41,859 nt of DNA. Origin: Desulfovibrio sp. DV. Lineage in GTDB: Bacteria; Desulfobacterota; Desulfovibrionia; Desulfovibrionales; Desulfovibrionaceae. Made by a program: the position numbers and the translations under genes. The DNA lies in assembly GCF_001936595.1 (NCBI RefSeq), contig NZ_MLBG01000027.1, forward strand, positions 1 through 41,859. The letters are read 5' to 3'. The notes below the pieces were generated by a model. The model had not been told where the DNA came from, made no database searches, and was given only the letters and a program-made list of their open reading frames with translations. Position 1 is the first letter of the stretch. Each line of letters begins with the position of its first letter. Of the stretch, positions 8,632 to 20,344 are shown piece by piece.

Positions 8632-10023
8632 CTATCGGCCGAGGTTGATTTCGCCGGTTTTTTTCAGGTGTTGCAAGAGCTTGGCATCGGTCTTGGCCAG
8701 GCGCGGAGCATCAGCCGCGAATGCCGCCAGGATCATACCGCAAAACTTCTCGCCCTTGTAGACTTCCACCCGGTAGACCGTGCCGGCCTTGTCCACGGAA
8801 AATTCCTTCTTGAGATCGGCCCTGGTCAGGGCTACCCCGGCCTCGTCGGCAAGGCCCGGCCTGGAAAAGCCGATGACATTGACCCGGTAGTCCCCGCCCG
8901 GAGCCACGGCAAAGCCCTTGCGCACGTCCACCACCTTGCCAAAGGCCACGTCCCGGCGCACGCCGTCGATGTCCATGGGCACGGCCCCGAGGCTCGAATC
9001 AAATTCCATGAACTGCGGATCAAGCTCGGTGACGTTGGTGTTGCCGAAATAGACCTTGAGGCTCTTGTCCGCCGACACCAGGGCGAGCAGCGGGCTGGCC
9101 GGCTGGTATTCCACGGCGCTGTCCTTTTTAAGCGGAATAAAGCGCAACCGCTCCCGGGCGTTTCGCAGATCAAGGTAGACCTTGTTGTCGAAAAAGGACA
9201 CGGCCACGTTGCTTTGCAGCGCCTCGGCCACTTGGGGCGCGCCAAGCTCGAAGGTGCGTTCGTATTCCACGCCAAAGGATTTGAGAAACGATTCGATGAC
9301 CCGCAGATGGTAGTAGGAGCGCATGGGCGGCGGCAGATTCTTGCTGCCCTCGATGCCAAAGGCCGGCTTGCCCTGGCCGATGGCAAAATACGTCAGGGTC
9401 TTGGCCATTTCCTTGGAGGTCTCGTCATCGAGCGTCTTGGTGTGGGTGTTTTTGACGTGGTAGGCGTGCAGCGGTTCGTAGAGATGGTCGTTGGCGGCGG
9501 ACACGGCCCGCTCGGCCAGTTCCTGAAGATTGCCGAACCGGCCGGCCTCGGCTGTCTCCTGGTCGATGATGACTGACTGGCCCCACCGCAGCGGGCACTG
9601 CCACTCGGTGATATAGGTCGGGCTGTAATAGCCCCAGCCGTCGTGGAGGTGGAGCACGGCTGTCACCTGCTCATCGCGGATGATGGCCTTGATCTTCTGC
9701 ACGGCCTCGTATTCCGGGTCTTTGGGGTCAAGCTCGGCGAACTTGCGGTTCATGTCGCCGTACACCCCGCGCGAACAGCGGATGATGCTCAAGAAATTGA
9801 GATTGGGCACCACCCAGACCGAGCCGGACTTGATCTTGTAGTGGGAAACCAGCAGGGCCGCAGCTGAAAAGCCCCCGGGTTCGTCGCCCTGGATGCCGCC
9901 GATGACCAGGATGGTCGGACCGGGACGGCCGGAATCGAGTTTGTGCAGGGTGAAATCGAGGTTGCCGCAGGGTGCGGCCGCAGCAGTCAGCAACAGAAGC
10001 AGCAAGGCCAGAATGAAACGCAT
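8632..10023 (-). CDS. csd4: Csd4/Pgp1-like peptidoglycan DL-carboxypeptidase (peptidase M99 family)
   Basis: The 463-residue exported protein carries a Sec signal peptide (residues 1-18) and, from residue 42, G-G-I-Q-G-D-E-P-G-G-F. It is followed by P-N-L-N-F-x-S-I-I-x-x-S-R-G-V-Y-G-D-M-N-R-K-F (residues 73-95) and H-L-H-D-G-W-G-Y-Y (125-133). This is the M14-like fold of Helicobacter Csd4 and Campylobacter Pgp1, which trim tripeptide stems of peptidoglycan to dipeptides and set helical cell shape. Csd4 uses an unusual Gln zinc ligand with Glu and His; Q45, E48 and an H of 125/127 fit that set. ATG 10023 is chosen over an upstream ATG because it starts the signal peptide and has GAGG just before it. 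In a vibrioid Desulfovibrio-like cell a shape role is the natural inference. Confidence 0.85.
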   Translation of the reverse strand: MRFILALLLLLLTAAAAPCGNLDFTLHKLDSGRPGPTILVIGGIQGDEPGGFSAAALLVSHYKIKSGSVWVVPNLNFLSIIRCSRGVYGDMNRKFAELDPKDPEYEAVQKIKAIIRDEQVTAVLHLHDGWGYYSPTYITEWQCPLRWGQSVIIDQETAEAGRFGNLQELAERAVSAANDHLYEPLHAYHVKNTHTKTLDDETSKEMAKTLTYFAIGQGKPAFGIEGSKNLPPPMRSYYHLRVIESFLKSFGVEYERTFELGAPQVAEALQSNVAVSFFDNKVYLDLRNARERLRFIPLKKDSAVEYQPASPLLALVSADKSLKVYFGNTNVTELDPQFMEFDSSLGAVPMDIDGVRRDVAFGKVVDVRKGFAVAPGGDYRVNVIGFSRPGLADEAGVALTRADLKKEFSVDKAGTVYRVEVYKGEKFCGMILAAFAADAPRLAKTDAKLLQHLKKTGEINLGR

Positions 10024-10284: not shown

Positions 10285-11115
10285 CTATTTCATATCCACA
10301 GTTTTGACCCAGAGAAGCGCATCCTGGGACAGGGGTTTGCCATCAAATTCTTTCACCGGGCCGGTGCCCATGGCGGCAAAGCCCCACCAGCCGGCCTTGG
10401 GCATGGCGTAGACAAACACGCCATTGGCGTCGGCCTTGATGGCCTGGGTGATGAAGCAGTCGTGGGGAGCGGTGGCCACGGCCTTCTTGTCAAAGCTGTT
10501 GGTACCCATGGCCGGGGCGTGGTTTAGATATTCCACCTCGATCTCGGCATCGGCCACGGGTTTGCCGTCGGCCAGGACCTGGCCCACAAAGACGTTGCCG
10601 GTATAAAGGCCGTAGGGCTTGGCCAGGGGCACGATTTCGGTGGCTAGGCCGACCGGCTTGCCCCAGTTGCCGGGAATGCCGCCGACGTTGAGCACCAGCT
10701 TGGTGATCTGCTGCATGTAGGACTTGTCTTCCGGCTCGAAATAAGGGGCCGGGACCAGGGCGAACACGTAGTCGCCGGGGCTGCGCAACTTCTGCTTGAA
10801 GGCATAGGCTTTGCCGGAATTGGTCAGGCTTTTCCAGGTGATGGGGGTCAGCCCCGCCTTGAGGTCGGTTTTTTGGGCCTCGCCTTCGGCACCGCGCTGA
10901 AAGACCATGAAGAACTGTTCCGGCGCGCCCATATCCATGGTGTGCCCGGCCTCGAAGGGATGGGTGAAGACAAGGCGCATGTCCACCTCGCCCCCCTTGT
11001 CCAGGGCGATTTCCGGGGTGTAGATCATCTGGAAGTGGGCGCTGGCCAGACCCGGCAGGGCCAGGGCGAGAACCAGGGCAACGAGCAGTCCGGCCAAAGT
11101 CTGTCTGTGCTGCAT
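10285..11115 (-). CDS. DUF4198 family periplasmic protein (NikK/COG5266-like metal-transport accessory)
   Basis: A 276-residue protein with a clear signal peptide (residues 1-26, cleavage after A-S-A) that leaves His as the first mature residue (H-F-Q-M-I-Y-T-P). The body has the DUF4198 pattern: M-R-L-V-F-T-H-P-F near residue 50, a two-domain beta-rich fold, and a Y-x-N-H-A-P segment in a carboxypeptidase-regulatory-like C-terminal domain. Family members accompany Ni/Co ECF transporters as periplasmic components. Here it follows feoAB and a second small exported protein, so the metal could be ferrous iron instead. The start has GGAGG 5 nt upstream. Which metal it binds is unknown. Confidence 0.8.
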   Translation of the reverse strand: MQHRQTLAGLLVALVLALALPGLASAHFQMIYTPEIALDKGGEVDMRLVFTHPFEAGHTMDMGAPEQFFMVFQRGAEGEAQKTDLKAGLTPITWKSLTNSGKAYAFKQKLRSPGDYVFALVPAPYFEPEDKSYMQQITKLVLNVGGIPGNWGKPVGLATEIVPLAKPYGLYTGNVFVGQVLADGKPVADAEIEVEYLNHAPAMGTNSFDKKAVATAPHDCFITQAIKADANGVFVYAMPKAGWWGFAAMGTGPVKEFDGKPLSQDALLWVKTVDMK

Positions 11116-11144: not shown

Positions 11145-11468
11145 TTATTCCAGGATCTTTTTGCCGTCGATCTCGATCTTGTGGCCTTCGCCGGCATCGT
11201 AGACGACAGCGTAGGCGCCCTCGGGTTTCTTGAAGGTGTACTTCGAAGTCTTGTCCATGGCCCCCTGCTCGATGACCTTGCCCGAGCCGTCCTTGACGAT
11301 CAGGCCCACGCCCGAGGCCGAGGAACCGTCGGAAAAGCCGCCCTCGCAGGTGATGGTGCCGTCGGCGTTGTCAAAGCACGAGCACAAGGCGGTGTGGGCC
11401 AGGGCTGCGCCGGGCAGGGCCAGGGCCAGGGCGATGAGAGCGAGAGCAATTTTCATTCTCAATTTCAT
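11145..11468 (-). CDS. Small exported protein of unknown function, Cys-containing, between feoB and the DUF4198 gene
   Basis: The 107-residue product begins with a signal peptide (residues 1-24, A-L-A cleavage), again exposing an N-terminal His (H-T-A-L-C-S-C-F). Three Cys fall early in the mature chain (C-S-C, then T-C-E-G-G) and a beta-rich segment ending in Y-A-V-V-Y-D-A-G resembles a short carboxypeptidase-regulatory-like fold. ATG 11468 is chosen for the GGAG 9 nt upstream; ATG 11456 is possible. The upstream gap 11469-11618 holds two small hairpins but no terminator T-run, so read-through from feoB is likely. By analogy with NikL/NikK pairs it could be a periplasmic metal-binding partner of its neighbour; this is inference. 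Confidence 0.65.
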   Translation of the reverse strand: MKLRMKIALALIALALALPGAALAHTALCSCFDNADGTITCEGGFSDGSSASGVGLIVKDGSGKVIEQGAMDKTSKYTFKKPEGAYAVVYDAGEGHKIEIDGKKILE

Positions 11469-11618: not shown

Positions 11619-14132
11619 TCAGGCGTTTTGCGCAGCCTCTTCGCAGGCTGCCGGAACCACGGGCCGGGGCCCCCGGTTGCGATGGGGAATGAGCCCGGCC
11701 AGGATGGTGGCGGCCACGGCCAGACCGTAAAAGCTCCACATGGCCGCGTTGCCGTCAAGGCCGAGCAGCCGGCCGCCGGTAAAAACGGCACTGGCCACAA
11801 TGATGCCGACGAACATGGGGTAGAGGATGGCCAGCACCATCCACCTGGCCTCGCCGGTCTGGACCTTGATCATCATCGAAGTGGCCATGCACGGCGGATA
11901 AAGGGCCATGAAGAGCATGAGCGCCAGGGCATGGAGGGGCGTGAAATCAGCCTCGCCGTGTCGCATGGAGACCTCAAGCGACTGGTTGTCGTTGCCGCCG
12001 GCTTCGAGCTTGTAAATGGCTCCCATGGTGGCCACGGCCGATTCCTTGGCAGCAAAGGCCGAGAGCAGGCCGGCGTTGACCCGCCAGTTAAAGCCGGCAA
12101 ACCGGGTAACCGGCTCCAGCGCCCGGCCGAGGATGCCGAGGAAACTCGTTTCCAGGCGCTCCCGGCGCATTTCCAGGCCGATGCTGTCGCGGCTCTGGGC
12201 AAAGGCCCGAACCCCGGCCAGGGCCGCCTTGGCCGCAGCGTCGGTGCGGGGTTTTAAAATAGCGAAGAAGTCCGGGTTTTCCTCGCGAAACCGGGTATCG
12301 ACGGCCTTGGCCGCCTCGGCGTCGGTAACCCCTGACCGGGCCGCCTTGTAGGCGTCCTCGTAGCGCAAAAACCCAAGCAGCCCTTTGCCGTGAAGGACCG
12401 CCTCGAACTGCGAGCCGGCCACGGCCGCGTCGAGCCGGCTGCGGGAGGCGTCCAGCCGGGTCTGATAGGCGGCCTTGTGCTCGCGGCTGATGCCGGGAAA
12501 CTGCAGCAGGACAAAGACGATGATGGCCACGGCCGCCACCACGGTGATGATCTTCCGGATGAAAAGGGCCACCTTCTCGATGGCCCGGGTAAACAGGTTG
12601 CGCAGGGTCGGCAGGTGGTACGGCGGCATCTCCATGATAAAGGGCGCGCTGTCGAGGTTCGAGAGCAGGGTCGAGGACAGCAGCCGGGCAATGGGCAGGG
12701 CCATGAACAGGGTGACCGTGGAAATGAAGAACATGGCTGCCGAGGCGTCGCCCGGAAAAAAGGCCCCGACCAAAAGGATGTAGAGTGGCACCTTGGCCAG
12801 GCAGTTCATGAGCGGAATGATAAGGATGGTGGCCAGCCGCGACTTGTCGTCGGGAATGGCCTTGCAGGCCATGACTCCGGGCACGCAGCAGCCGCCAAGA
12901 TAGACCCCGGCCAGCACCATGGGCAGGGTGGATTGGCCGTGCAGGCCGTAGGATCGAAACAGCCGGTCCAGGATGAAGGCCATGCGCGGCATGTAGCCGG
13001 TGTCCTCCAGGCAGGCCACGCAGAAAAAGAGCAGGAAAAATATGGGGATGTAGTTCAAAAGCGAATTGACGGAATCCATGAACCACAGGCCAAGCGAGCG
13101 CAGGAGCGGGTCTTCGAGCATCCCGGCCGGAGGCAGGTAACCGGCCACAACGGTCTTGAGACCGGCCAAAAGCGGCCACGTGTAGTTGGTGAGCTTATAC
13201 CCCCAGACGATGGAGACCTGATACAGGACAAAAAGCACGCCGATCAGGATAACGGGGCCGAGGTACTTGTGGCACACGAAATCGTCGATGGCGTCGGTCC
13301 GGGTTTTTTCCGGTCCGGCCGCCTTGACCGTGGCCGCCCGGGCCAGGGACCGGGCCAGCCGACGCCGGGCCAGGGCGGCAAAGGCGGCGACCGTCTCCCC
13401 GGACGACTCCCGGAAAGTTTCCTGACGCTCGGCAACCAGCGCGGAGAGGCGCACCGGATCGAAAAACACCTCGGCCACGAACTGCCGCGCCCCTTCGTCG
13501 TTTTCGAGCAGCCGTACGGCCAGCCAGCGCCGGGGCGCGCCCAGGTCGCCGCCCTTGGCCAGCACATCTTCCACGGCCTTGATGTGCGGCTCAAGCGGAC
13601 CATAGTCCACCCGAAACGGTTCATCCTTGGCCGGCAGGTCCACGGCCGCCGTCATGACCGCGGCAAGCGCCTCGCGGCCCTGGCCCTTGCGGCCAACGCC
13701 CGTGGACACCGGCACGCCCAGGCGCTGGGACAGGATGTCGGTGTCGAGCACCTGGCCGCGCCGCCCAGCCACGTCCATCATGTTGCAATGGACCACCACG
13801 TTGCTTTCCAGTTCAAGCAACTCCACGGTCAGGCACAAATGGCGGCGCAGGTTGGAGGCGTCGATGACGTTGACCACCACCCGGGGATGGTCAAAAAGCA
13901 GAAAATCGCGGGTGACGCGCTCTTCCGGGGAGTACGAACTGACGGAATAGGCTCCGGGCAGGTCCACCAGCTCGCAGGTCCGGCCGCCGAGCTTGAAATG
14001 GCCGGATTTCTTCTCCACCGTGACGCCGGGAAAGTTGGCCACATGCTGGCGGGCACCGGTCAGCATGTTAAACACCGTGGATTTGCCGCAGTTGGGTTGG
14101 CCGGCCAAGGCGGCCAGGATGCGGCGGCTCAT
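11619..14132 (-). CDS. feoB: Ferrous iron transporter FeoB
   Basis: An 837-residue fusion of an N-terminal GTPase and a membrane permease. The GTPase has G1 GQPNCGKST (residues 11-19), G2 region N-F-P-G-V-T-V-E, G3 DLPG (57-60) and G4 N-M-M-D (117-120). The permease half has Gate-type segments (G-C-C-V-P-G, and C-L-A-K-V-P-L-Y) and about eight to ten helices. A long polar insertion of roughly 150 residues precedes the last helices, which makes it longer than the E. coli protein. It moves Fe2+ across the inner membrane. ATG 14132 overlaps the feoA stop (ATGA); the frame further upstream is an artefact running antisense to no known domain. Confidence 0.95.
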   Translation of the reverse strand: MSRRILAALAGQPNCGKSTVFNMLTGARQHVANFPGVTVEKKSGHFKLGGRTCELVDLPGAYSVSSYSPEERVTRDFLLFDHPRVVVNVIDASNLRRHLCLTVELLELESNVVVHCNMMDVAGRRGQVLDTDILSQRLGVPVSTGVGRKGQGREALAAVMTAAVDLPAKDEPFRVDYGPLEPHIKAVEDVLAKGGDLGAPRRWLAVRLLENDEGARQFVAEVFFDPVRLSALVAERQETFRESSGETVAAFAALARRRLARSLARAATVKAAGPEKTRTDAIDDFVCHKYLGPVILIGVLFVLYQVSIVWGYKLTNYTWPLLAGLKTVVAGYLPPAGMLEDPLLRSLGLWFMDSVNSLLNYIPIFFLLFFCVACLEDTGYMPRMAFILDRLFRSYGLHGQSTLPMVLAGVYLGGCCVPGVMACKAIPDDKSRLATILIIPLMNCLAKVPLYILLVGAFFPGDASAAMFFISTVTLFMALPIARLLSSTLLSNLDSAPFIMEMPPYHLPTLRNLFTRAIEKVALFIRKIITVVAAVAIIVFVLLQFPGISREHKAAYQTRLDASRSRLDAAVAGSQFEAVLHGKGLLGFLRYEDAYKAARSGVTDAEAAKAVDTRFREENPDFFAILKPRTDAAAKAALAGVRAFAQSRDSIGLEMRRERLETSFLGILGRALEPVTRFAGFNWRVNAGLLSAFAAKESAVATMGAIYKLEAGGNDNQSLEVSMRHGEADFTPLHALALMLFMALYPPCMATSMMIKVQTGEARWMVLAILYPMFVGIIVASAVFTGGRLLGLDGNAAMWSFYGLAVAATILAGLIPHRNRGPRPVVPAACEEAAQNA

Positions 14133-14380
14133 TGGGCCATCACCTCGACCAGCGAGGCCTCGCAGCGGCGCAGGCTGACCAGAAAGCCGCTGACCTTGAT
14201 CTCGATGGGGTCGCGCAGCGGCGCATTGCGCACCACGAGAATCTCCTCGCCAGGCACCAGCCCCAGATCGCCCAACCGCTGGCCCAGACAGCCGTCGCAG
14301 CCGACCCTGGCCACCGTGCACCGTCCGCCCGGGGCAATGGCCCCCAGGTGCGTGCGGCCACTCGATGTGCGTTCGTCCAT
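14129..14380 (-). CDS. feoA: Ferrous iron transport protein FeoA
   Basis: An 83-residue SH3-like cytoplasmic protein of normal FeoA length, with G-C-L-G-Q-R-L-G-D-L-G-L-V-P-G then the I-E-I-K-V-S-G strand near its end. It also carries two Cys in an R-V-G-C-D-G-C pattern. FeoA is thought to assist or regulate FeoB. ATG 14380 has a strong GGAGG 5 nt upstream; its stop overlaps the feoB start. It follows the MCP-like gene by 59 nt with no visible terminator, so it may be read from upstream as well as from its own promoter. Confidence 0.92.
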   Translation of the reverse strand: MDERTSSGRTHLGAIAPGGRCTVARVGCDGCLGQRLGDLGLVPGEEILVVRNAPLRDPIEIKVSGFLVSLRRCEASLVEVMAQ

Positions 14381-14439: not shown

Positions 14440-15804
14440 TCAGGAACAGGCCGCGGTTTCCTCTTCGGCTGCCGCGCCGCACAACCGGGCCATGAGCCGA
14501 TCCACGCCGGCCAGGGCCTCGCGCACGCCCCTGGCATGGTCCTGGCCGGCCAGGGCGGCCTCCTCGATGGCCGTGGCCTTGGCCAGGGTTTCGTGCAGGG
14601 CCTGCCCGGCCCGGCCAAGGGGCGAAAGGGAGCGGCTGACGGTGTCGGCGCTGGCCTCGCCCTGGTTGCGGGCGGCCACGGCGTTGGCGGCGATGTCGGT
14701 CAGGGCTGTCCCGACCCTGGAGGACAGGGTCAGGAGATCGCCGGTTGCGGCATTGGCGGCCCGAAGCAGCCCGGCATTGCCCTCGGCCTGGGCCATGACC
14801 CCGCCCAGGCGGGCGGCGGCCTGGGCGGCGGCCTCCTTGGAGCGTTCGGCCAGCCGGCGCACCTCGTCGGCCACCACGGCAAAGCCCCGGCCGTGGTCCC
14901 CGGCCCGGGCCGCCTCGATGGCGGCATTCAAGGCCAGCATGTTGGTCTGGTCGGCAATGTCGGAAATGGCCTCGCCGGTGGTGGCGGCAAAGCGCAACCC
15001 ATCAACCAGCGCCTCAAAAGAGCTGGACAGCCCCTCCATGGACTTGGCCACGCTGCGGCAGGCCCCTTCCAGGCCGATCTCCAGGTGATGCCCGGTTTCG
15101 GCGATGGCCGCCGCCTCCTGGGCCTTGGCCGCAGCGCCCAGGGCGTTTTCGGCTGCCTCGCGCACGGCGAGCAAGGCCGTGTCGAGGAGGGTAAAGGCCT
15201 CGCCCAGGCTGTGCGACTGGGAGGCGACCAGCTCGATGGTGGCCGCGCCGTCGGCCAGCAGGGACTCGGCCCGGACCGAGGCCGTCTCGATATGGCCGCG
15301 CACCTCACCCACCACCTCCGACACGGCAGCCAGCCGGGCCTGCCCGGCAGTGCGGTGGGCCTTGGCCGCGTCGCGCAGGGCCTTAAGGGCCTGCCTGTTT
15401 TCAGCAAACGCCTGCTTGCGCTGGTCCTCGGCCTCGGCCCTGAGGCTGGAAATCGTCTCGGACACCCGGGCGGCGGTGTCCCACACCCCGGCCAGGGGAC
15501 TGACGGCCAGTCCCGGGGCCGGGAGATCAACGACCGGCTGGCCGGCCAACGCGGTGCCGAGTCCGGCAGCCAACTGGCGGGCCGGCATGTCCACCAGGGC
15601 GGCCCAGGCGACAAGTCCGGCCAGCAGCGTGGTCCCGCCGGCCAGGAGCACGGCGGCAGCCGGGGGCATGTCCCAGGCCGCGCCGGCTCCGGCGGCGGTG
15701 GCGGCCACGGCGGCCAGGAGGCCGGAGACGGCCAGGGAGGCGGGATGCGGGGCGCGCCAGCAAAGCGGTGCGTCGGCCAGGCCGGCCGCTGTCGAGTCGT
15801 CCAT
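14440..15804 (-). CDS. Methyl-accepting-chemotaxis-type signal transducer without a sensor domain
   Basis: The 454-residue protein has two hydrophobic helices near its N-terminus (about residues 18-45 and 48-66) with almost no loop between them. There is no periplasmic domain and no recognisable HAMP. A long Ala-rich coiled coil follows, and then the conserved hairpin tip, with [21 protein letters not shown] and [10 protein letters not shown]-x-L-A. Two ATGs stand at 15807 and 15804; GGAGG lies 2 and 5 nt upstream of these, favouring 15804. It sits 22 nt behind the SiaC-like gene and is likely cotranscribed with the Sia-type switch, suggesting it relays or reads that switch rather than a chemical ligand. 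Confidence 0.85.
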
Positions 15805-15826
15805 CATGTCCTCCGGCGGGCGGCGG

Positions 15827-16207
15827 TTAGAGCGCCACCAGTTTGAAGGCCAGGGCCTTGGCGTCCTCGGCGAATTCCTCGCCGCACTCGCAGGCAATGT
15901 CGTTGTCCTTGTCGTAGCGCCAATTGACCGTGATGCGCATTCCGCCGGCAGCGGCGATTTCGAGCATCTCGAACAAGTCGAGCAGGGCCTTGGACGAGGA
16001 CGAATTGAAGTAGACCAGTTCCATGTCAAAGGTGACCGGCGCGGTCGGCTTGGCAGCCAGATAGGAGCGCAGCCAGGCAAAAATCGGACTGAAAAAAGCG
16101 GCGGCGTTTTCCGGGTAACACTCGCCTTTCATGCGATGCTGGTGGCTTACCGCATCGAAACGGATTTCGGGCGTGGAGCGCGTTGGCGCACTAACAAAGG
16201 GCTGCAT
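15827..16207 (-). CDS. siaC: SiaC family regulatory phosphoprotein (DUF1987)
   Basis: The 126-residue product matches SiaC closely. It has [12 protein letters not shown] near residue 30 and [14 protein letters not shown] carrying the phosphorylatable Ser/Thr position in the middle. It ends with [10 protein letters not shown] and [13 protein letters not shown]. In Pseudomonas aeruginosa, SiaC is phosphorylated by SiaB and dephosphorylated by SiaA, and the unphosphorylated form activates the diguanylate cyclase SiaD. All four kinds of gene are present here on one strand. ATG 16207 is preferred over 16225 because GAGGAG lies just upstream. Confidence 0.88.
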
Positions 16208-16217
16208 GTCGGCTCCT

Positions 16218-16766
16218 CTAGGCAATGACGACGTCCAGGGCGAACCAGGCCAGATCGTCGGAGATGGATTGGATTTGGTAGCGCATGGGGCGAACGGACC
16301 GGCGGGCCATTTCCAGAAAGCCCAGGCCCGCGCCCCGGGACTGGTCGTCGGGACCCTGCTGGCGGCAGGATTTGTACAAGGCCTTAAGCGTCTCCCGGTC
16401 GGTGCCGGCCAGGACGTCGAGGCGTTCCCGGATACGGAGGGCCAGCGACTTGCGGATCAGGTTGCCGCAACTCAGGCACAACCCGTCGGGATCGAGGCGT
16501 ATGATCAGTTCGCCCGAGGCCATGCGGCCGGTGGCCATGTCCACGGCGTCGGCAGCGTAGCGCAGGACGTTTTGCAGCTGCTCGACCAGCACGGCAAAGG
16601 CCATGGCCGCCCGGGTGCGGTTGGCGATCTCGAAGTCCACCTTGCGCCGGATCATGGAGCCAAGGCCCTCCACGACCTCCTGGGTCACCGGTCCCTTGAA
16701 GTACAGGACCACGCCGCCTTCCCGAAGCAGTTCACGGCATTTGTCGAATTGGGGGCCGCCAGTCAT
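16218..16766 (-). CDS. siaB: SiaB family protein kinase
   Basis: A 182-residue protein with the SiaB/DUF6272 pattern: G-G-V-V-L-Y-F-K-G-P-V-T-Q early, L-V-E-Q-L-Q-N-V-L-R-Y (the helix holding the catalytic Asn in GHKL-like folds) in the middle, then S-G-E-L-I-I and S-C-G-N-L-I, and R-G-A-G-L-G-F-L-E-M-A near the end. It should phosphorylate SiaC. Its ATG overlaps the SiaA stop by one base and it ends 11 nt before siaC, a tight operon. Confidence 0.85.
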   Translation of the reverse strand: MTGGPQFDKCRELLREGGVVLYFKGPVTQEVVEGLGSMIRRKVDFEIANRTRAAMAFAVLVEQLQNVLRYAADAVDMATGRMASGELIIRLDPDGLCLSCGNLIRKSLALRIRERLDVLAGTDRETLKALYKSCRQQGPDDQSRGAGLGFLEMARRSVRPMRYQIQSISDDLAWFALDVVIA

Positions 16767-17983
16767 CAGATCCCTCCCAGGGCAATGGGGCGAACGGCCA
16801 GCACGGCCACATCGTCGCGGCGTCCGTTTCGGCCCCGGTGTGTTTCAAAAAGTTCGACCAGGGCGTCCCGGCGTCGGGCCAGGGGTTGGTCGCCCGTGTC
16901 GGCGAGCCACTGGCGCAAGGGACGCTTGCCAAGGGGCAGGTCGCGCCCGCCGCCAACCTGATCGGTGACGCCGTCGGAAAAAAGGACAAAGGCATCGCCC
17001 GGCAAAAGGGCCACCGGCACATTGGCAAAGACCGCCTCGGCCGGGGTCTTGGCGTAGCCAAGGCCCATGCGGTCCGGGCCGATCTCGACCACTTCGGCCC
17101 CGCGCTTGATCCAAAGCGGCCGGCGCGCTCCGGCGTAGACGAGCCGGGAGCAATCGTCGGCGTCGAGATAGACCAGGCCCATGTCCATGCCGTCGTCCAC
17201 CTCGCCGCCACCCTGGAGGAGCAGCCACTGCTGCATGAACCGATTGACCTCGGTGAGCACCCCGGCCGGATCGCCCTCGAAGCGTTCCAGGCGCACCCGG
17301 TCCAGGGCCGCCTTGGCAATGAGGGTCATAAACGCCCCGGGCACGCCGTGGCCGGTGCAGTCGCCGATGCCGACAAAGACACCGCCCTGGCAGCGGGCGA
17401 TAAAAAACACGTCGCCGCCGACCACGTCGCGCTGGTCCCACCATACAAAGCTGTCGGGAAAGACCTCGGCCAGTTCGGCCGGACTGGAGAGAAAGGCCCG
17501 CTGGATACGGGCGGCGTAATCCAGGCTGGACTCGATCTGGCGGTGGGCGCTTTCCAGATTGACCAGCGTGTCGTTGAGCCGCCGTTCGCGCACGGCCACG
17601 GCGTGGCCAAGCCAGTAGATCTGGCGGGCCAGTCCCGGAAAATCCCCGGCCTCGCCGCGCACCGGCGGGGCGCAAGCCGTGGCGTAGTTGCCCTGCTTGA
17701 TGCGCATACAGCTGTCCATGAGCCGCCCGACCTGGTCGAACACGATGGATTTGCCGGCCAGGCGCACCAGCGGGTAATAGAGGATCACGCCCAGGGTGAC
17801 GTAGCCGGCCAGCATGGCCTTAAGCGTCCCCTCGTCCAGGGCGGCCTGGCCGAACATCAGGGCCAGGGGAGCAATGACGACAAAGGGAAAGAGGATCAGC
17901 CCGAGTTTGGCCGGGGTGCCCAGTCCCGCCGCCATGAGGCCGGCTTCCCCGCTGCCGCGCCATTTTTCAAGAAGCCTTCGCAC
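16766..17983 (-). CDS. siaA: SiaA-type membrane PP2C (SpoIIE) phosphatase
   Basis: The 405-residue protein has two transmembrane helices (about 25-46 and 53-73). A HAMP-like linker with a coiled coil follows, leading into Q-I-E-S-S-L-D-Y-A-A-R-I-Q-R-A-F-L, and then a SpoIIE/PP2C domain. The acidic metal ligands are seen in V-G-G-D-V-F-F (about 189-195), G-D-C-T-G-H-G-V-P-G-A (about 206-216), L-F-S-D-G-V-T-D and R-D-D-V-A-V-L. P. aeruginosa SiaA has a periplasmic sensory domain; here the two helices are almost contiguous, so any signal must be sensed in the membrane or cytoplasm. It starts with GTG 17983 behind a strong AAGGAGG. It should dephosphorylate the SiaC-like protein. Confidence 0.87.
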   Translation of the reverse strand: MRRLLEKWRGSGEAGLMAAGLGTPAKLGLILFPFVVIAPLALMFGQAALDEGTLKAMLAGYVTLGVILYYPLVRLAGKSIVFDQVGRLMDSCMRIKQGNYATACAPPVRGEAGDFPGLARQIYWLGHAVAVRERRLNDTLVNLESAHRQIESSLDYAARIQRAFLSSPAELAEVFPDSFVWWDQRDVVGGDVFFIARCQGGVFVGIGDCTGHGVPGAFMTLIAKAALDRVRLERFEGDPAGVLTEVNRFMQQWLLLQGGGEVDDGMDMGLVYLDADDCSRLVYAGARRPLWIKRGAEVVEIGPDRMGLGYAKTPAEAVFANVPVALLPGDAFVLFSDGVTDQVGGGRDLPLGKRPLRQWLADTGDQPLARRRDALVELFETHRGRNGRRDDVAVLAVRPIALGGI

Positions 17984-18051: not shown

Positions 18052-18080
18052 TGTTTTATTGAGACTGAAAACAACTTTCA
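18052..18080 (-). promoter_or_regulatory. Putative sigma-70-type promoter of the siaABC-MCP genes
   Basis: On the - strand TTGAAA (18075-18080) and TAAAAC (18052-18057) are separated by 17 nt in an AT-rich pocket, about 65 nt before the siaA GTG. It lies just after a hairpin that may end the cyclase transcript. Confidence 0.45.
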
Positions 18081-18092
18081 AAATCAATTACA

Positions 18093-18109
18093 GCCGGGCA
18101 GCGTGCCCG
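18093..18109 (-). terminator. Possible terminator after the diguanylate cyclase gene
   Basis: A 7-bp GC stem (18093-18099 / 18103-18109) with a 3-nt loop is followed on the - strand by an AT-rich stretch containing TTGATTTT. It is only a moderate terminator, so partial read-through into siaA is possible. Confidence 0.4.
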
Positions 18110-18124: not shown

Positions 18125-19249
18125 TTAGGCCATTTCGGCCGCCCCGCCCCGTAACGCCGGCCACAGTCCGCAATCCAGGCAGACCCGGTTGCGCCCGCTG
18201 CGCTTGGCGGCATAAAGGGCCTTGTCCGCCCGGGCCAGGCAGGCGGCCGGTTCGGGGTCCAGCCCCTCGGTGAAAACCGCCACCCCAAAGCTGGCCGTCA
18301 CCCGGACGCACTGGCCGCCGGCCTCGACGCAAAGCCCCTCCAGGGCCCGGCGCAACCGTTCGGCCAGTTCCTCGCCGCCGGCCAGATCCGTTCCCGGACA
18401 CAGCACGGCAAATTCCTCGCCCCCGACCCGGCCCACCATGTCCGCCACCCGCACGCTGTCGCGAAGCCTGCCGGCCACGGCCCGCAGCACCGCATCCCCG
18501 ACGTCGTGGCCGTAAGCATCGTTGACGTTTTTAAAATGATCCACATCAACCATGATCATGCCAAGCGGCGCTCTGGAGCGGGCGGCCGCAGCCTGGGCCC
18601 TGACAGCGTTTTCGAAAAACCCCCGGCGATTGGCCAGGCCGGTCAGCGAATCGGAGGTGGCCCGGCGCACCAGCTCGTCTTCCAGGGCCTTTCGGGCCGA
18701 AATATCCTGGGTCATGCCGACCACGTGGCCGTCGGGTTCGATGACCGAGGCCCCAACCAGGCACCACACCGGCCCCCGGGGAGTGACCAGCCGCACTTCC
18801 ATGCGCCGCACCCGGCCCGAAGCCTGCAAAACCTGCTCAAACACCCGGAAGTCGGCGTGATCAAAAAACAGGGAGGCAACCGTCGCGGTTTCGGCCAGGG
18901 CGGCCTCGCCAACACCTGCGCCTGGCCCGGGCGGCGGGGCCAGCAATTCGACCAGGGCCTGGTTGACGGTCAGGAGCCGGCCGGCGGCATCGGCCAGAAA
19001 GATGCCTTCGGTGGAATTCTCGAAAATGCCCCGGTACTGCTCTTCCTGCTGGCGCAGCCGGCGATTGAGGTCCACCATCCGGGCCTGGGTGCGGTCGCCG
19101 ATGCGGGCCAGTTTTTCGGCCCGGCTGACCATGCGCGAGGCCAGATCGAGGAACTCCCCGGCCAGGGCCAGCACGCGCTGCGGATCATCGCGCACCCGTT
19201 CCAGGCGCTCCCGCATCTGGTCAAGGCTCTCGTCGGTCAAGCTCGCCAC
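18125..19249 (-). CDS. PAS-GGDEF diguanylate cyclase
   Basis: About 374 residues. An N-terminal helical region leads to a PAS domain (F-E-N-S-T-E-G-I-F-L-A-D to the D-I-S-A-R-K end) and a C-terminal GGDEF domain with D-S-L-T-G-L-A-N-R-R-G-F-F, the metal site D-V-D-H-F-K-N-V-N-D and the active-site G-G-E-E-F. An inhibitory RxxD (R-V-A-D) precedes the active loop by the usual spacing, so it should be an active, product-inhibited c-di-GMP synthase. Start choice is uncertain: GTG 19249 follows a G-rich stretch, ATG 19216 is possible, and the frame stays open to 19588 across the promoter. It is a likely SiaD counterpart, but unlike P. aeruginosa it lies upstream of siaA and has a PAS input. Confidence 0.85.
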   Translation of the reverse strand: MASLTDESLDQMRERLERVRDDPQRVLALAGEFLDLASRMVSRAEKLARIGDRTQARMVDLNRRLRQQEEQYRGIFENSTEGIFLADAAGRLLTVNQALVELLAPPPGPGAGVGEAALAETATVASLFFDHADFRVFEQVLQASGRVRRMEVRLVTPRGPVWCLVGASVIEPDGHVVGMTQDISARKALEDELVRRATSDSLTGLANRRGFFENAVRAQAAAARSRAPLGMIMVDVDHFKNVNDAYGHDVGDAVLRAVAGRLRDSVRVADMVGRVGGEEFAVLCPGTDLAGGEELAERLRRALEGLCVEAGGQCVRVTASFGVAVFTEGLDPEPAACLARADKALYAAKRSGRNRVCLDCGLWPALRGGAAEMA

Positions 19250-19329: not shown

Positions 19330-19359
19330 GTGATAATTGAGAGCGATTGTCAATGTCAA
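19330..19359 (-). promoter_or_regulatory. Cyclase promoter with an embedded Fur-like box
   Basis: On the - strand TTGACA (19354-19359) and TATCAC (19330-19335) are 18 nt apart. The spacer is the 19-bp element at 19336-19354 (ATTGAGAGCGATTGTCAAT on the + strand), with exact ATTGA/TCAAT ends and close agreement to Fur boxes of the ATTGAnAATnATTnTCAAT type. A GATAAT hexamer overlaps its left edge. Fe-Fur binding there would block RNA polymerase. Confidence 0.55.
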
Positions 19360-19741: not shown

Positions 19742-20344
19742 ATGACCAATCGAAGACTGTGGCTGATTGATGCCGGGTATATGTACAGGGGGCAATCCTA
19801 TTACAATAGGGAATATAGCATCGACTACGTCAAATTGCGCAATAAACTGGAATACGAAAGCCCCATCTGGCGCGCCTATTATCTCAACTCCGTGCCCAAT
19901 CCCACCCCCGATTCCCAGGTTGCCTTCTACAACTGGATGCGCTCCGCTCCGCCCCAGGGACCGAAAATCATCACCAAGCTCTACGAACTGCGCACCAGCG
20001 AAATAAACGAACTTTACTGCGAACAGTGCCGCCGCAAGGTTCCCATCACCTGCTCCCATGACCGGACCCATCGCCTGAGCCGCGAACAGCAAAAGGGCGT
20101 GGACGTCGGTCTGGCCACCCTGGCGCTCACCCACATCGAGAACTACGACACCCTGATCCTCTCCTCCGGCGACAGCGATCTCCTGGATGCCGTGGAATAC
20201 ATCACCGAAAAAAACAAACAGTTCGAGTTGCTCGTCTTTAAAAACGGTGTCTCAACAGATCTCCAGTGCCGGGCCGACCGCATCTGGTGGATCGACGACT
20301 TTGCCCAGGAAGTCGCCCGCGAACCCAGGCCCGTGGCCCCGTAA
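19742..20344 (+). CDS. NYN (LabA/DUF88-like) domain protein, putative PIN-like RNase
   Basis: The 200-residue protein has the acidic residues of NYN/PIN-fold nucleases: W-L-I-D-A-G at residues 7-12, K-G-V-D-V-G-L-A with D121, and S-S-G-D-S-D-L with D144 and D146. Between them is a putative zinc site C93-x2-C96-x7-C104-x-H106-x3-H110, which is not part of the core fold. The start ATG 19742 has AGGA upstream, and a strong terminator follows at 20371, so it is a single-gene unit. Its RNA substrate cannot be guessed. It sits head-to-tail with the ORP operon but is separated from it by that terminator. Confidence 0.82.
   Translation: MTNRRLWLIDAGYMYRGQSYYNREYSIDYVKLRNKLEYESPIWRAYYLNSVPNPTPDSQVAFYNWMRSAPPQGPKIITKLYELRTSEINELYCEQCRRKVPITCSHDRTHRLSREQQKGVDVGLATLALTHIENYDTLILSSGDSDLLDAVEYITEKNKQFELLVFKNGVSTDLQCRADRIWWIDDFAQEVAREPRPVAP

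Follow-up and report, generated by a model that had tools for sequence, protein, structure and literature searches.

The question raised by this locus is whether a sulfate-reducing bacterium places c-di-GMP synthesis and ferrous iron uptake under a single iron-responsive control. The SiaABCD system has been studied in Pseudomonas aeruginosa as a biofilm switch, and its inputs are argued over. In the DNA analyzed here (the window, meaning the whole 41,859-nt stretch that comprises positions 1-41,859 of NZ_MLBG01000027.1 from Desulfovibrio sp. DV, GCF_001936595.1), SiaA, SiaB, SiaC and a GGDEF protein are encoded together. Judging from sequence comparisons, we consider it probable that a Desulfovibrio-type tandem Fur box overlies the minus-strand promoter of the block, that Fur represses the operon, and that iron limitation raises SiaABCD-type c-di-GMP capacity and Fe(II) uptake together.

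A sequence-only reading of the window had described a Fur-like box in the promoter of a diguanylate cyclase (DGC) gene, consisting of a 19-bp element with exact ATTGA/TCAAT ends located precisely between the -35 and -10 hexamers. The element is indeed present at positions 19336-19354 (ATTGAGAGCGATTGTCAAT, or ATTGA-N9-TCAAT, read without a strand assignment). The genome (4.85 Mb) contains this pattern at 4 places, compared to 0 for the reversed-pattern control, and one of the other three places is upstream of a MoxR-like AAA gene. The claimed placement holds on one side, in that TTGACA and TTATCA are separated by exactly the 17-bp core (19337-19353), and the -35 candidate TTGACA (19354-19359, minus strand) is perfect and is present in all six congeneric promoters compared. 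The -10 side is weak. The candidate TATCAC (19330-19335, minus strand) follows an 18-bp spacer, agrees at 4 of 6 positions, and is not conserved in L047; the promoter at 19330-19359 was absent from the output of a sigma-70 consensus scan. The sequence TTGACAnTGAnAATnnnnnTCAAT of the DGC promoter is kept in congeners.

The element was scored with a matrix made from 38 Desulfovibrio sites published by Rodionov et al. 2004 (PMC545781, available part), with the gdp rows excluded, such that the matrix is independent of the window locus. It scores positions 19337-19359 as Fur-type, which supports the Fur-like assignment of the earlier reading. Two minus-strand boxes upstream of the DGC gene overlap with a 6-bp shift, at 19337-19353 (14.3 bits) and 19343-19359 (13.6 bits). 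The second box includes the -35 candidate, and the tandem is kept in five congeners and in L052 and L050. Given that the training sites score 12.6-27.9 bits, the window boxes are weak-to-middling members of this collection. Indeed, a single box of 14.3 bits is unremarkable, because the best match per shuffled window averages 13.4 bits with a 95th percentile of 16.9. Tandem clusters in which both boxes reach at least 13 number 3 in the window versus 0.03 expected per 41.9 kb (100 Markov shuffles), and all 3 fall at the block that extends from the DGC gene to a DUF4198 gene (19337-19359, 18065-18093 and 11446-11468). At 19337-19359 there is a 17-bp palindrome near WTGAAAATNATTTTCAW, a 6-bp tandem, and conservation before orthologous genes, as expected for a Desulfovibrio Fur box (dFUR). 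Thus, it is the tandem form and the conservation, not the single-box score, that raise the element at 19336-19354 above chance, and it is very probably a Fur site.

A matrix derived from the upstream regions of feoB genes in the genus proved too noisy to be useful, with at least 13 consensus matches in just 10 of 22 regions, some of them doubtful, and the published sites were used in its place. A gene for an NYN-domain protein (19742-20344, plus strand) is divergent from the DGC gene. It was rejected as the gene served by the box, since its start is ~380 nt away and it was seen at the window alone among the searched sia loci.

Similar boxes elsewhere in the genome precede genes for a MoxR-like AAA protein, a DUF2325 protein and flavodoxin as well as the feoAB genes of contig 159, and another is located near a CobW gene. 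Both the MoxR-like gene and flavodoxin are among the Fur targets predicted for Desulfovibrio, and the former has a counterpart in the D. desulfuricans G20 table (PMC545781, available part); the MoxR-like, flavodoxin and contig 159 feoAB boxes therefore serve as positive controls from the same genome. The tandem score at the feoAB genes of contig 9 is 11.4. Four Fur-family genes are present in the genome, in keeping with control by Fur, but the 1.5 kb examined around them contains no upstream Fur box.

A search of 348 genomes of the class detected SiaC in 70. With three partial or sub-threshold SiaC places left out, 76 sia loci were analyzed (window included), of which 37 are DGC-first, 33 SiaA-first and 5 SiaB-first, and 1 has SiaC only. 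Tandem boxes of at least 13 were sought within 700 nt in loci with at least 250 nt of upstream sequence, a requirement that removed 4 of the 76 (L096, L103, L106 and L148) from the counts. L103 is SiaA-first by its contig end alone, and the tree described below places it among the DGC-first loci. A tandem Fur box lies upstream of 34/35 DGC-first, 0/31 SiaA-first and 3/5 SiaB-first usable loci, with a background of 2.6% among 7313 random stretches drawn from loci that have other Fur sites. The Fisher p value for this contrast (5e-18) is overstated, since the loci are related and not independent. The box precedes the DGC gene in all 6 congeners that have the operon, and it is retained in 28/29 usable DGC-first loci when the genus of the window is removed.

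The threshold of 13 was chosen after the window score (13.6) was known, and the four closest scores, that of the window among them, are 13.5-13.6 and barely exceed it. At a threshold of 10, the contrast is 34/35 DGC-first versus 1/31 SiaA-first loci. At 16, boxes are recovered for 29/35 DGC-first loci (27/29 in other genera), and the window itself fails. The exception is the DGC-first locus L101, which has no box within 700 nt; the SiaA-first locus L129 reaches 12.1.

A midpoint-rooted tree of SiaB plus SiaC was constructed for 72 loci; SiaB was required, so L123 and L141 are absent. In this tree, one group (support 0.952) comprises the DGC-first loci together with L103 and the three SiaB-first loci that have Fur boxes, and all 23 Feo-linked loci are placed within one clade (support 0.996). 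Because the Fur-boxed and Feo-linked loci cluster in this manner, the tree suggests a single origin for the iron link of sia loci. Three loci of one genus (L116, L120 and L124) have a Fur-boxed SiaB-SiaC-MCP-SiaA arrangement with no DGC at the head, where MCP denotes a methyl-accepting chemotaxis protein.

These data bear on two other explanations for the element. It might be a chance palindrome in an AT-richer promoter that is recognized by no regulator, as its unexceptional single-box score relative to shuffles would allow. We regard this as highly improbable given the tandem form, the position kept in six congeners, and the family-wide contrast of 34/35 with 0/31. Alternatively, the box might be bound by another Fur-family protein of the PerR or Zur type. 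The genome does encode four Fur-family proteins. However, both the published dFUR consensus WTGAAAATNATTTTCAW and its 6-bp tandem arrangement match the element, and the consensus given for Zur in Desulfovibrio is a different one, ATGCAACNNNGTTGCAT (PMC545781, available part). Moreover, FeoAB is present in the block, and the same type of box marks flavodoxin and feoAB genes, which makes a different binder quite unlikely.

If Fur is the regulator, the genes it would control are arranged on the minus strand in the order DGC-SiaA-SiaB-SiaC-MCP-FeoA-FeoB-NikL-like-DUF4198. The first (18125-19249, with a presumed GTG start) codes for a SiaD-like diguanylate cyclase that has a helical stalk with one SiaC-binding motif, a PAS domain and a GGEEF motif, and that matches Pfam GGDEF and PAS and, below the cut-off, NCBIfam SiaD. 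The SiaA-like PP2C/SpoIIE phosphatase (16766-17983; NCBIfam SiaA profile, PDB 6k4e) matches the SiaA profile (658 residues) over residues 302-656 and thus lacks the N-terminal part of SiaA. It is followed by a SiaB-family kinase with DUF6272 (16218-16766; 142 bits versus a subfamily cut-off of 85; PDB 6kko) and a SiaC-family phosphoprotein identified by family match (15827-16207), in which Ser (FNSSSSK) takes the place of P. aeruginosa Thr68 (LNTSSIK). The MCP (14440-15807) has adjacent hydrophobic segments at residues 23-44 and 48-72, leaving no space for a ligand domain between them. FeoA (14129-14380) is recognized by its FeoA domain and FeoB (11619-14132) by its GTPase and permease domains (TIGR00437, 423 bits, cut-off 315.65).

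The earlier reading had the same-strand genes end with feoAB, but the block runs on into two genes for exported proteins. One codes for a small NikL-like protein (11145-11468; NCBIfam NikL, 50 bits, below the cut-off of 100) with homologues in 18 other sia loci, and the other for a DUF4198 protein identified by family match (10285-11115). The NikL-like protein is predicted to form a beta sandwich (pLDDT 88). Because this predicted fold has no PDB match at E ≤ 0.001, we assign the protein no function. Both proteins have a His directly after the A-x-A signal end. The pair resembles the accessory proteins NikK and NikL of nickel transporters; in this block it is linked to the uptake of ferrous iron, and it recurs in many sia-feo loci. 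Behind them lies a gene for a Peptidase M99 protein of a cell-shape carboxypeptidase family (8632-10023, minus strand), which was rejected as an operon member on the basis of a 261-nt gap and the absence of a homologue from the searched sia loci.

The placement of the DGC gene at the head of a Sia-MCP-Feo block is borne out by the layout, in that the DGC, Sia, MCP and FeoAB genes are close together on one strand, and no minus-strand terminator-like site was found in any gap from DGC down to DUF4198. The intergenic gaps from siaA to feoB measure -4 to 59 nt. The 141-nt gap between the DGC gene and siaA contains a second minus-strand Fur cluster (18065-18093), unnoticed in the earlier reading, whose three overlapping boxes (16.9, 15.8 and 15.7) are stronger than the element at the DGC promoter. 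A tandem is present at this place in 4/5 other congeners, with L046 below threshold. A third tandem Fur-like pair (19.1/13.3; 11446-11468, minus strand) overlies the start codon of the NikL-like gene, which has a 150-nt gap upstream, and this pair may be a coding coincidence. The MCP-feoA gap of the window has no Fur box (best score 5.7), and some congeners show one there by eye.

Based on these sites, we predict at least two Fur-type promoter regions rather than one. It is a serious possibility that the genes form two or three separate Fur-controlled transcripts (the DGC gene alone, and SiaABC-MCP-Feo from before siaA) that are co-regulated without being one operon. The DGC-siaA gap has its own stronger cluster and AT-rich promoter-like sequence in most congeners, and the third cluster with its preceding gap at the NikL-like gene points the same way. 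However, the gap between 18125 and 17983 has no minus-strand terminator-like site, and the DGC-SiaA gap carries no tandem box in most DGC-first loci of other genera.

By its profile scores, the window set is a Sia-like module rather than an equivalog of the P. aeruginosa one. We use this label because the scores fall below the NCBIfam equivalog cut-offs (SiaA 207/700, SiaB 90/225, SiaC 105/150 and SiaD 180/290 bits) and only the wider SiaB-family cut-off is reached. SiaD is the best NCBIfam match of the DGC, whose intact GGEEF motif and GGDEF family score (151 bits) are as expected for an active diguanylate cyclase. In P. aeruginosa, SiaC binds two SiaD stalk motifs around R80, I81, S82, D83, R84 and Q86, and phosphorylation of SiaC at Thr68 prevents this binding (PMC8457831, available part). 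The window DGC has one such motif in its stalk, EKLARIGDRTQ (P. aeruginosa EKVARISDRYQ). Among the loci, the motif was found in 58/61 DGC matches on the SiaC strand by using an expression that was written after examples had been viewed; of the three misses, two are truncated by contig ends and the remaining one is an additional DGC of L133. A profile made from 24 of the 58 stalks, with the GGDEF domain excluded, finds the SiaC-SiaD structure PDB 7e6g with an E value of 8.8e-9, compared to 0.057 for the next match. In most DGC-first enzymes, a PAS domain lies between the motif and GGEEF, giving a spacing of about 223-230 residues versus about 97-105. SiaC carries NSSSSK in most Desulfovibrionaceae. 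Nine loci from a different family of the same order (f4-type plus L133) have LNTSSIR instead, and their DGCs have two stalk motifs, like that of P. aeruginosa.

The window DGC thus appears to be a SiaD-type enzyme, and its output should depend on SiaA, SiaB and SiaC. By homology to P. aeruginosa, SiaB would phosphorylate SiaC to set the off state, SiaA would dephosphorylate it, and free SiaC would bind the DGC stalk to turn on c-di-GMP synthesis, with the PAS domain providing a second input to the DGC. When iron is sufficient, Fe(II)-Fur would bind 19337-19359 and the cluster before siaA and block transcription. When iron is limiting, DGC-siaA-siaB-siaC-mcp-feoA-feoB, presumably with the NikL-like and DUF4198 genes, would be derepressed, simultaneously yielding more Fe(II) import and more of the SiaABCD-type switch, with a possible effect on surface attachment. 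The proposal that iron limitation raises c-di-GMP synthesis together with iron uptake is therefore supported by the independent matrix, the conservation of the box and the gene layout, as far as sequence can test it. A refinement is that, because DGC output should be tied to SiaA, SiaB and SiaC, iron would set the amount of the switch and not its state.

Several components of this arrangement are already known, namely SiaABCD, Fur-controlled DGCs, and a predicted Fur-regulated GGDEF gene in two Desulfovibrio species; the combined operon appears to be new. We found no Fur-Sia-Feo operon in the titles and abstract openings of the open-licence papers searched, and one may be described elsewhere. 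The window shares with P. aeruginosa SiaABCD a PP2C phosphatase, a DUF6272 kinase, a SiaC phosphoprotein and a DGC with a SiaC-binding stalk motif in one cluster. It differs in having the DGC first, a PAS domain that separates the stalk motif from GGEEF, a single stalk motif rather than two, Ser for Thr68, a SiaA lacking 300 positions at the N-terminal end of the profile, Fur boxes, and MCP-FeoAB-NikL-like-DUF4198 genes behind. Compared to FeoAB ferrous iron uptake operons, FeoA, FeoB and a Fur box are shared, but here feoAB lies downstream of signalling genes and is followed by the two exported proteins.

The GGDEF gene gdp belongs to the predicted Fur regulon of two Desulfovibrio species, for which overlapping Fur boxes shifted by 6 bp are also described (Rodionov et al. 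2004, PMC545781, available part). The window shares with that regulon the dFUR consensus, the shifted boxes and a box close before a GGDEF gene; unlike the window DGC, gdp is tabulated in the available part on its own, with no sia or feo gene as a partner (PMC545781). Identification of gdp by its published box did not succeed. The exact box has no carrier among the 288 family genomes searched, and a combined pattern matched 1/288, at the DGC promoter of the genome that contains L050. In Vibrio cholerae, the GGDEF gene cdgD is directly repressed by Fur, linking Fur to c-di-GMP; unlike the window DGC, it is described in the available part of that report without a Sia module or FeoAB in one block, and with a Fur effect that is iron-independent (PMC7641913).

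Across one family of sulfate reducers, the Sia module is tied to iron twice, through Fur boxes and through gene order with FeoAB. The same box precedes the Sia circuit in many relatives, and iron shortage probably turns on the c-di-GMP circuit and the ferrous iron pump together. A direct prediction is that iron starvation raises c-di-GMP capacity. The sulfate reducers concerned live on iron surfaces and corrode steel, and certain relatives form iron organelles. Should gdp turn out to be related to the window DGC, this would give a function to a GGDEF gene whose 2004 assignment to the Desulfovibrio Fur regulon was left unexplained.

The genomic linkage to feo extends beyond the window. In the genus, window-type FeoB (85-92% identity) and SiaC (80-91%) co-occur in the same 6/14 genomes. 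The order from DGC to DUF4198 is kept in 5/6 congeners; in the sixth (G007), the contig breaks off inside the MCP gene. FeoB is encoded in the examined flank of 18/37 DGC-first and 5/33 SiaA-first loci, and among the latter, FeoB lies between SiaA and SiaB in 4 and after the DGC in the fifth. For SiaC loci of other bacteria (best 80 of at least 468), FeoB is near in 3, all of which are named Desulfovibrio and apparently match three loci already counted; no FeoB near SiaC was found outside Desulfovibrionaceae in the other 77 of these best 80, many of which are on short contigs. The SiaC-FeoA interval, examined in two loci, carries Fur-family genes in both L052 (by Pfam) and L118 (by reading), together with an AAA gene and a DUF2201 gene in L052.

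We also considered whether Fe(II) transport might itself be an input to the switch. FeoB would act in the membrane jointly with the SiaA-like phosphatase and the MCP, both of them sensorless, and Fe(II) import or the periplasmic carriers (NikL-like, DUF4198) would set SiaC phosphorylation, c-di-GMP and taxis. Fur would then determine how much of the circuit is present, and Fe(II) flux which state it is in. We consider such a joint machine unlikely, although four loci from other genera (L053, L102, L108 and L121) have the interleaved arrangement SiaA-FeoB-SiaB-SiaC-DGC, which would fit it. In L053 (9020-18796), a P-type ATPase with an HMA_2 domain and small glutamine/tyrosine-rich proteins precede these genes, a set that we take to be reminiscent of ferrosome gene clusters.
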